NCBI RefSeq assembly: GCF_013033355.1
Contig: NZ_WQDY01000009.1
Location: 62,001-126,000, forward strand
Direction of reading: 5' to 3'
From: Ruegeria lacuscaerulensis
Lineage (GTDB): Bacteria > Pseudomonadota > Alphaproteobacteria > Rhodobacterales > Rhodobacteraceae
DNA: 64,000 bases
In this document: positions 26,697-28,024 of the stretch, one piece after another
How the letters are laid out: each line of letters opens with the position of its first letter
Position numbering within the stretch: position 1 is the stretch's first letter
Position numbers and translations under genes: made by a program
Notes under the pieces: generated by a model
Seen by the model: the letters and a program-made list of their open reading frames with translations, nothing else
Databases searched by the model: none
What the model was told of the DNA's origin: nothing

Positions 26697-27341
26697 ATGC
26701 AACGCGCTTATATTCCCGGCATTCTTGCCATGGCCGCCATCGTCGTGGCCTCGAACATTCTGGTCCAGTTCCTGATCTTTGACGGGCTGTTGACCTGGGG
26801 TGCTTTCACCTATCCGCTGGCCTTTCTGGTCACAGACATCATGAACCGCGTCTACGGCGTGGCCACGGCCCGCAAGGTTGTGTTCGCAGGTTTCATCACC
26901 GGTATCATCTGCTCGCTGATCGGCAGCCAGATCATGCTGCAGGGCGACGGGTTCACCTATGCCGCCGTGCCGCTGCGCATCGCCGTGGCCTCGGGCACCG
27001 CGTTCCTGATCGCGCAGCTGACCGACGTCACCGTGTTCAATGCAATGCGCGGAGGCCGCTGGTGGCGCGCGCCGCTGGTCTCGACCCTGGTCGGATCGGC
27101 GCTGGATACGGCGCTGTTCTTCACCATCGCGTTCTCGGCCTCGATCACCGTGTTTGGCGCCAATGCCGACGCCGCGATCAACTGGGCGTGGGAGCCGGTA
27201 CCCTTCATGCTGACCGGTCCAATGGCCCCCCTGTGGGTGACGTTGGCTTTCGCGGATTGGCTGGTGAAACTGTCGCTGGCCATGATCGCGCTAATCCCGT
27301 TCAAAGTGATCGTCTCGCGCCTGACCGCACAGCCTGCGTAA
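26697..27341 (+). CDS. yhhQ: Queuosine precursor transporter YhhQ
   Basis: A 214-residue inner-membrane protein with about six helices of the vitamin uptake / YhhQ family (formerly DUF165) that imports 7-cyano-7-deazaguanine or 7-aminomethyl-7-deazaguanine for queuosine synthesis. ASNILVQFLIFDGLLTWGAFTYPLAFLVTDI contains the conserved FTYP..FL.TD pattern, and NRVYGVATARKVV follows. I looked for a preQ1 riboswitch in the 90 bp upstream and did not see one. The structured leader of arfB begins 30 bp after its stop. Confidence 0.92.
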   Translation: MQRAYIPGILAMAAIVVASNILVQFLIFDGLLTWGAFTYPLAFLVTDIMNRVYGVATARKVVFAGFITGIICSLIGSQIMLQGDGFTYAAVPLRIAVASGTAFLIAQLTDVTVFNAMRGGRWWRAPLVSTLVGSALDTALFFTIAFSASITVFGANADAAINWAWEPVPFMLTGPMAPLWVTLAFADWLVKLSLAMIALIPFKVIVSRLTAQPA

Positions 27342-27416
27342 AAAAACGTTTGGAGATTGGCGCATCTTGTGTCACCATCCTTATCAACCGCAACAGATAG
27401 ATAAGGAGGTGATCCA

Positions 27417-27473
27417 GTGTCGAGAAAGAGATTGGAGAGAGGTGTCGGAACAACCGGGGGGATCGCCTGTTAG
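27417..27473 (+). CDS. 18-codon leader ORF upstream of arfB
   Basis: GTG start to TAG, encoding MSRKRLERGVGTTGGIAC. The Shine-Dalgarno AGGAGG ends 7 nt before the start and is part of a 15-nt match to the 16S rRNA 3' end, the strongest ribosome site in the window. The peptide is basic at its N-terminus and ends GGIAC. The stop codon directly abuts the antiterminator arm, so a ribosome pausing at termination would mask that arm. I do not recognise the peptide; the translation signal is the main evidence that it is real. Confidence 0.5.
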   Translation: MSRKRLERGVGTTGGIAC

Positions 27474-27543
27474 GGCAGCCCTTGGCGGAGCGCTCGCTCC
27501 GGCTGGTCGATTGATCTAACCGACCCAACCTCCTGAACTTTCG

Positions 27544-27577
27544 AAGGGCTGTCCCGCCGGGGCGGCCCTTTTTGTTT
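27544..27577 (+). terminator. Rho-independent terminator between leader ORF and arfB
   Basis: An uninterrupted 12-bp stem pairs 27544-27555 with 27559-27570 (two G-U pairs), with a 3-nt GCC loop, followed by TTTTGTTTT. It is the best terminator in the window. It lies about 30 nt upstream of the arfB start codon, leaving almost no room for a separate promoter. Confidence 0.85.
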
Positions 27578-27604
27578 TGTGCTCGGGCAGTTAAGGTCGC
27601 GCCT

Positions 27605-28024
27605 ATGTTGCGCATCACCGACGATATCATTCTGCAAGACTGGGAAATGACCGAAAGCTTTGTGCGGTCCTCCGGTCCCGGCGGGCAGAACGTGAACAAG
27701 GTCTCAACTGCCGTTGAGCTGCGGTTCGAAGCTGCGCGGTCTCCGTCGCTGCCTGATCCGGTGAAAAACCGGCTGAAAAAGCTGGCCGGGCGACGCTGGA
27801 CTAAAGAGGGCGCGATCATCATCCAGTGCGAGGAAACCCGCAGCCAAGCCCGCAACCGCGAGTTGGCCCGTGCCCGTCTGGCCGAGCTGATCGCCCGCGC
27901 ACTGGTCAAGCCTAAACGACGGGTTGCGACCAAGCCCACCTATGGCTCGGTCAAACGGCGGCTGGCGGCGAAAAAAGCGCGCGGAGACGTCAAGGCGCTG
28001 CGTGGGCGGGTCAGCGAAGATTGA
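27605..28024 (+). CDS. arfB: Alternative ribosome-rescue factor B (peptidyl-tRNA hydrolase)
   Basis: A 139-residue ArfB/YaeJ protein that releases the nascent chain from ribosomes stalled on truncated mRNA. The catalytic GGQ motif is in VRSSGPGGQNVNKVST, typical of class I release-factor-like proteins. The lysine/arginine-rich C-terminal tail (LVKPKRRVATKP..., KRRLAAKKARG) is the part that inserts in the empty mRNA channel. ATG 27605 has AAGG 8 nt upstream; a 5' extension would run into the terminator. smpB lies 3.2 kb downstream, so the two rescue routes are close together on the chromosome. Confidence 0.95.
   Translation: MLRITDDIILQDWEMTESFVRSSGPGGQNVNKVSTAVELRFEAARSPSLPDPVKNRLKKLAGRRWTKEGAIIIQCEETRSQARNRELARARLAELIARALVKPKRRVATKPTYGSVKRRLAAKKARGDVKALRGRVSED

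Follow-up and report, generated by a model that had tools for sequence, protein, structure and literature searches.

A probable stand-alone small RNA gene with a near-complete complement of the 16S rRNA tail between yhhQ and arfB of Ruegeria lacuscaerulensis

We analyzed a 64,000-nucleotide (nt) stretch of Ruegeria lacuscaerulensis DNA (contig NZ_WQDY01000009.1, positions 62,001 to 126,000 of the forward strand), here called the window, in whose coordinates and on whose plus strand all features below are given. Our subject is the region between yhhQ and an arfB-like gene, which the initial annotation had read as a translation-sensing attenuator controlling arfB, a ribosome-rescue gene. The region is probably a stand-alone small RNA gene rather than mainly a switch for arfB. 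The predicted transcript runs from 27385 to 27577, its start being placed from the -10 box and its end from the terminator. We propose, with a probability of roughly 0.45 judged from sequence, that this RNA, independently transcribed and about 190 nt long, acts by strand exchange as a sensor and is a dual-function RNA gated by free 30S ribosomal subunits. As far as seen, its unusual feature is that a near-complete complement of the 16S rRNA tail stands together with a start codon in an otherwise uncharacterized kind of RNA.

The extended Shine-Dalgarno (SD) sequence AAGGAGGTGATCCAG (27403..27417) is complementary over 15 nt to the 3′ tail of 16S rRNA. It serves a micro open reading frame (micro-ORF) of 18 codons that begins with GTG (27417-27470) and ends at the stop codon TAG (27471-27473), as had been reported initially. 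The predicted duplex of the 16S tail with the window RNA has an energy of -25.2 kcal/mol, compared to -10.1 for AAGGAGG alone. An oligonucleotide in passages of a Sinorhizobium YbeY study (PMC6943124) includes the alphaproteobacterial tail, GGCUGGAUCACCUCCUUUCU. The tail sequence rests on that source and on common knowledge, because a search for the 16S 3′ end in four genomes did not find it; three gave nothing and the match in the fourth was the small RNA, on the opposite strand.

Conservation of the core and start codon was counted only on 30 loci found with the Rfam family RF01867; the pattern loci (L062-L246) came from searches that required both elements. All 30 loci carry AAAGGAGGTG and 24 carry AAAGGAGGTGATCC. 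A start codon stands at the same position after AAAGGAGGUG in 30/30 (ATG 15, GTG 14, TTG 1), and the full AAAGGAGGUGAUCC is present in 24/30. The first of these counts is not wholly independent, since the core and a GUG are part of the RF01867 consensus. Ten nt of the 16S-tail complement are constant, and the complement usually spans 14-15 nt. At the other end of the micro-ORF, codon 19 is a stop in 47/49 Rhodobacterales loci (TAG 24, TAA 10, TGA 13, TGG 0), in 25/26 Sphingomonadales loci (TAA 13, TGA 12), and in five of six RNAs of the family whose core or second codon has diverged. Both the SD and this 18-codon ORF count as conserved features. Conserved start and stop codons of a short ORF are the mark of coding (dual-function) small RNAs (sRNAs), to which the window RNA would belong by this measure. 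Productive initiation on extended SDs is known in Staphylococcus aureus, according to passages of PMC13009471, and the extension by itself therefore does not forbid translation.

The gene appears to carry its own promoter. A predicted -35 box TTGGAG (27350..27355) is separated by a spacer of 17 nt from a predicted -10 box CACCAT (27373..27378), both placed from the sequence and from the promoter pairs of relatives. These relatives were sorted by regular expressions on their first codons into five locus groups: Rhodobacterales (49), CC2171-like (45), Mesorhizobium-like (26), other (47, including a few ordinary genes such as L071 and L144) and Sphingomonadales (26). The groups leave out the copies from the window, the majority of those from its genus, duplicates over 120 nt and rows too near a contig end, and the window row itself stands outside the 49. 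In 46/49 Rhodobacterales loci the -10 element of the best -35/-10 pair starts 27-30 nt upstream of the core (shuffled mean 4.1). A promoter-like pair at the same distance was found in 35/45 CC2171-like, 23/26 Mesorhizobium-like and 30/47 other loci (shuffled means, all groups, 1.8-4.4), and in Sphingomonadales in 5/26 only. Among 12 Rhodobacterales rows the -35 box reads TTGACA in five and TTGAGA in four. The transcript would end at an intrinsic terminator (27543..27573), a hairpin at 27543-27571 of -23.1 kcal/mol followed by a T run. Terminator-like sites occur in 43/49 Rhodobacterales, 25/45 CC2171-like, 25/26 Mesorhizobium-like, 32/47 other and 19/26 Sphingomonadales loci, compared to 5, 2, 3, 1 and 0 in control windows, for which some rows had no room. 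The hairpins end at group medians of 168-186 nt past the core start.

A known family resembles this RNA. RF01867 (CC2171) aligns to 27392-27569 over all 159 model positions with 31.2 bits and E 4.9e-5, which is below the curated gathering score of 75 bits; in the whole window no Rfam family reaches its gathering score. Other candidates (sbrA, suhB and others) gave E 0.11 or worse and were rejected. Within the 5′ core AAAGGAGGUGAUCCAGUGUC of the family, AAGGAGGUGAUCCAGUGUC is identical in the cmscan alignment and the preceding A is a U in the window. Furthermore, the intrinsic terminator follows directly after the site of a possible closing helix, as in the family. From the core, the architecture and the position, the window RNA is likely a divergent relative of RF01867, below the curated threshold. 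The initial annotation had named a match to an independently expressed sRNA family as speaking against its own arfB switch, and such a match exists in part, full-length and below the gathering score.

Relatives of the RNA occur in several alphaproteobacterial orders, beside genes unrelated to one another. Within the genus, 33 of 36 other genomes match it strongly over most of its length, one has a 30-nt match and two have none. RF01867 matches were obtained in 45/190 class genomes, seven of them reaching the cut-off. The core with a start codon was found in 88/198 family genomes and 80/385 class genomes, and in a phylum sample in 45/86 in-class versus 6/213 out-of-class genomes, four of the latter six (L271-L274) being ordinary longer genes; a control with the reversed pattern gave 0 in all scans. 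A scan of named records gave at least 116 stretches, of which, among the matches listed, 108 have alphaproteobacterial or plain "Proteobacteria" titles and eight do not. The decamer AAGGAGGTGA occurs four times in the window's own genome, and the flanks of the other three copies look coding by eye. One genome holds two copies of the core (G048:C1:805114 and G048:C1:2922049), and RF01867 also matches twice there.

We then consider how the SD is closed. The region 27372-27577 folds better than 200/200 shuffles (z -4.85). In the fold of the window RNA, the SD is closed by a downstream anti-SD, ACCTCCT (27528..27534), a mimic of the 16S tail that had been recognized initially and that pairs with AGGAGGT at 27404-27410. 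In predicted folds of 43 Rhodobacterales RNAs the mean probability of being unpaired, P(unpaired), is 0.01 for GGAGG, compared to 0.32 with shuffled bodies. A pairing run of at least 8 with the SD core is present in 34/49 Rhodobacterales loci (18.8% of shuffles), in 30/45 CC2171-like (31.1%), 28/47 other (27.4%) and 13/26 Mesorhizobium-like loci (26.9%). The RNA body contains CCUCC in 30/49 Rhodobacterales (12.8 expected), in 13/45 CC2171-like (10.3) and 13/47 other loci (8.0), and in 3 (3.3) and 2 (3.0) loci of the two groups of 26. A masked SD in Rhodobacterales would make initiation plausibly dependent on free 30S subunits.

Two hairpins involve the micro-ORF itself. H1 (27413..27436; UCCAGU/AUUGGA) surrounds the start codon, and its six pairs are retained with little variation in 43-45 of the 45 rows (of 49) that make up the Rhodobacterales alignment. 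The long hairpin H3 (27454..27502) spans the end of the micro-ORF, including its stop codon, and has a CAGC loop. Its outer stem shows 52 both-side changes in the 45 Rhodobacterales, compared to a permuted mean of 25.4 and a maximum of 39 in 1000 permutations; this count comes from a hand-anchored ungapped alignment, and the permutation control ignores relatedness. Few helices were recovered when MAFFT alignments were folded with RNAalifold. A possible closing helix, P1, would pair CTTTCGA (27538..27544) with TCGAGAAAG (27420-27428) and is weak in Rhodobacterales, where Ruegeria rows have a bulged version, and well supported in the CC2171-like group only. Pairing of CAUUGUC after the start with GACAAUG before the terminator reaches at least 7 Watson-Crick pairs in 21/45 CC2171-like loci (about 2% of controls) and in 1/49 Rhodobacterales loci. 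By eye P1 looks universal, but when 10-nt stretches were compared without gaps an excess was clear in Sphingomonadales alone. In each of the five groups own arms gave duplex energies 1.3-6.4 kcal/mol better than other-group arms, with test windows partly misplaced, and within Rhodobacterales swapped arms matched own pairing (-7.88 vs -7.69).

These features can be joined in one model. When free 30S subunits are abundant, the 16S tail would displace the internal anti-SD. The micro-ORF would then be translated and the ribosome would unfold H1 and H3, which could free the CCUCC stretch or alter the stability of the RNA. When free 30S subunits are scarce, the RNA would remain closed. Candidate outputs are pairing of CCUCC in trans, titration of 30S subunits, and control of the RNA's own lifetime. 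An output in trans, affecting ribosome use or SD-bearing mRNAs, appears more likely to us than one on arfB. The idea of ribosome-availability sensing was already part of the initial annotation; it remains plausible in this form, with the SD predicted to be masked in Rhodobacterales and with arfB as a less likely output. Likewise, the alternative offered there of an independent sRNA with an anti-SD loop comes near to the model, except that the window anti-SD is predicted to pair with the SD and not to lie in a loop.

Several observations weigh against this model. Outside Rhodobacterales, masking of GGAGG does not exceed that of shuffled bodies (P(unpaired) real/shuffled 0.32/0.21, 0.26/0.27, 0.33/0.29 and 0.26/0.26 in the other four groups), and SD-core runs of at least 8 are not enriched in Sphingomonadales (2/26 vs 28.8% of shuffles). 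The switch is therefore not established across the family. Five Rhodobacterales loci (L262, L264, L265, L266, L267) retain AAAGGAGGUG with the following AUCC changed, so that the full-tail complement is not obligatory. The exact pattern is absent from 305/385 class genomes, many of them small, and the RNA is missing from some genomes of the same genus. Among 14 control genomes, RF01867 matched Caulobacter vibrioides and the unrelated Deinobacterium chartae, one of these two over the cut-off, and the Deinobacterium match belongs on this side of the balance. The same applies to the partial circularity of the start-codon count given above.

Several of these observations can be read differently. 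In one alternative the RNA is a 30S decoy that occupies the 16S tail and lowers SD-led relative to SD-less or leaderless initiation, with the ORF clearing subunits or setting the lifetime of the RNA. A match that spans almost the whole tail complement in 24/30 RF01867 loci goes beyond the need of a normal SD, and a complete duplex would reach to about 1 nt from the start codon or extend into it. A decoy could also be selective, because an SD precedes 24.6% of Caulobacter genes, according to passages of PMC4117421. However, the conserved start and stop codons would be superfluous for a pure decoy, a high copy number would be required, and extended pairing serves productive initiation in the S. 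aureus case (PMC13009471, in part). On balance we consider the decoy unlikely.

Conserved start and stop codons could also mean that a short peptide, mostly of 14 to 36 amino acids (aa), is the functional product. The length of 18 aa is kept in the 47/49 Rhodobacterales and 25/26 Sphingomonadales loci, and in two loci, L149 (Azospirillum) and L213, the ORF reaches 59 and 56 aa. The peptides of different orders, however, have little in common beyond the initial MS (MSRxxLERGVGT... in one order; MSHGSA..., MSHCH... and MSS[DE]... elsewhere). Moreover, the Rhodobacterales codons ahead of the stop vary in step with H3 base pairing, and those that are constant are constant at the third position too. 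Peptide divergence and codons that follow H3 thus weaken a functional peptide as the main product, and we give this explanation a small chance of being right. The long ORFs of L149 and L213 open behind the same start site and include a segment resembling a signal peptide. A Bradyrhizobium version (L113, L124, L129, L133, L156) encodes a 14-aa ORF, MS[YFC]xKRCHLAGIAR, and three contigs filed as viral (L252, L253, L255) carry close relatives of it (14-16 aa), perhaps host DNA beside prophages.

The initial interpretation, transcription attenuation of arfB in response to ribosome availability, draws some support from the neighborhood of the gene. In the window yhhQ ends at 27341, and the arfB-like gene (27605..28024, ATG at 27605; an ORF with homologues by sequence, its name taken from the initial annotation) starts about 30 nt past the strong terminator, as had been stated. 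Of the 49 Rhodobacterales loci, 46 have yhhQ upstream and 38 have an arfB that starts no more than about 350 nt from the core. Terminator and nearby arfB are separated by 7-61 nt in 30 of the 35 loci where both ends were located, which leaves little room for another promoter and makes read-through into arfB possible in Rhodobacterales. Furthermore, the 11-bp antiterminator proposed initially is strong in the window (-23.3 kcal/mol, rivaling the terminator at -23.1) and, among six other Ruegeria rows, reaches -17.4 in five and -14.1 in the sixth. It is not specifically conserved, however. Only one of 43 Rhodobacterales with a located terminator, the six Ruegeria included, is below -18, and the mean own pairing (-12.12) equals that with arms swapped between species (-12.16), both being better than with shuffled arms (-8.58). 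We therefore rejected a conserved antiterminator. The 13-bp hairpin that was said to bury the SD exists as a match in the DNA (-19.5 kcal/mol), but its 5′ arm (27373-27385) coincides with the -10 box predicted above and precedes the expected start at about 27385. In 29 other same-genus loci the matching hairpin ranges from -3.5 to -16.9 kcal/mol, and this hairpin was rejected as overlapping the -10 box and not conserved.

The link to arfB itself fails outside one order. A gap of about 0.9 kb separates RNA and arfB in 3/49 Rhodobacterales loci, and arfB was not found in 8/49, one of these at a contig edge. With 1-8 kb examined per locus, no locus outside Rhodobacterales has arfB downstream; by title or peptide, yhhQ upstream with arfB downstream is confined to Rhodobacterales, and the sole arfB-like gene elsewhere lies upstream on the opposite strand (L119, Hyphomonadaceae). 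Neighbor ORFs in other orders belong to different clusters, built from crude longest-ORF calls, some of which are antisense. Conversely, arfB is present in 11 of 12 family genomes that lack the exact pattern. Four genomes (L258, L259, L260 of the same genus, and L268, another family genome) have yhhQ then arfB, the 330 nt that precede arfB being free of the core; in L263 both yhhQ and the core are missing from the vicinity; and six (L261, L262, L264-L267) have a relative of the small RNA, with the core changed in five. Since each of the two is found where the other is absent, the RNA is not tied to arfB, and arfB was rejected as its constant target. A leader-peptide attenuator is expected to stand before the gene it controls and be conserved with it, and to have conserved, mutually exclusive antiterminator and terminator structures; neither was found. 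Attenuation of arfB is thus at best a secondary, order-specific possibility, perhaps confined to Rhodobacterales, and as the main function it is improbable. In sum, the parts listed by the initial annotation are real, whereas most of its interpretation lacks support. Two of the Ruegeria genomes that lack the RNA, L258 and L260, also show by eye a terminator-like hairpin between yhhQ and arfB.

A role as an antisense RNA in 16S 3′-end maturation or quality control is hardly credible. In its favor, by inspection the complementarity ends near the mature 16S 3′ end (tail taken from passages of PMC6943124). Against it, by eye the cores show no apparent constant complement to the precursor past that end, and the start and stop codons would be left unexplained.

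A near-full complement of the 16S tail that is kept across many orders of one class calls for an explanation, given that in Caulobacter at least the majority of genes begin without an SD (PMC4117421). If the RNA responds to free 30S subunits or captures them, it would directly link ribosome supply to gene regulation, and a function would be suggested for RF01867, an Rfam family that has a gene-tag name only. More tentatively, and with considerable doubt, the sequences could point to a dedicated class of RNAs that read free small subunits by strand exchange. Its leader would pair with nearly all of the 16S tail, a 16S-tail mimic would compete for this leader in part of the family, and initiation and termination on a fixed-length micro-ORF would set the state; the class may extend beyond Alphaproteobacteria. 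Four loci with Gemmatimonadetes or Gemmatimonadaceae titles (L070, L103, L122, L137) have the core, TTG TC(T/C)AGT, a 20-22-codon ORF and a GC-rich hairpin by eye. GGGCAA(A/G)CG recurs in all four, L070 and L137 have a common upstream neighbor cluster, and these loci may represent the RNA outside Alphaproteobacteria. Two genomes of one out-of-class family (L269, L270) carry AAGGAGGTGATCATATGTCGAG and an 18-codon ORF (MSRVKVFGQAAMSEGRSS, MSSVLKIRKSAMSEGRVY) with a hairpin and T run behind it; in their order the exact pattern was found in 1/59 genomes, the already known one. Loci with a Prochlorococcus (L108) and a SAR92 title (L163) have the core before TTG or GTG, a short ORF, and a hairpin with T run by eye; they are otherwise dissimilar and possibly due to chance.

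In open-licence PMC literature we found no mention of CC2171 together with Caulobacter, AGGAGGUGAUCC appeared only in the YbeY context, and no description of a function for the window RNA was found, judged mostly by title or abstract start. The passages available of PMC5521070, PMC4809877, PMC5107571, PMC5082802 and PMC4287350 do not mention the RNA. Ribosome profiling in Caulobacter found two formerly predicted non-coding RNAs to be translated, which are unnamed in the passages at hand (PMC4117421).

Compared with known systems, the window RNA is closest to RF01867 CC2171 of Caulobacter, with AAGGAGGUGAUCCAGUGUC identical in the same place, the full model aligned and a terminator at the same position. 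It differs in its low score and in its interior and ORF. Pos19 of Rhodobacter sphaeroides is likewise an alphaproteobacterial sRNA of about 200 nt with an SD, a short ORF and a terminator; in the passages of PMC5036791, however, it is RpoE-driven, has an ORF of 135-150 nt and is found only in R. sphaeroides strains. Anti-SD stretches resembling CCUCCU are also carried by SmelA075/SmelA099 and RS0680a (PMC3927594) and by BbsR14 (PMC7717549). As far as these sources were available, the stretches lie in hairpin loops, while the window CCUCC is predicted to pair with the SD of the same RNA, an arrangement of part of the family only; conserved unpaired CCUCC in hairpin loops, the mark of such sRNAs, was not found. 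The trp attenuator rnTrpL/peTrpL of Sinorhizobium meliloti shares a short ORF followed by a terminator and an RNA that is released alone. In the parts of PMC10117765 at hand, trpL is leaderless and stands before trpE, whereas the SD of the window RNA is exceptionally long and the gene downstream of this RNA is not constant. Finally, in the extended SD-anti-SD initiation of S. aureus, 16S-tail pairing also continues beyond GGAGG toward the start codon. There, passages of PMC13009471 describe a few extra pairs on many mRNAs, whereas the window RNA would engage almost the whole tail from a single RNA gene.

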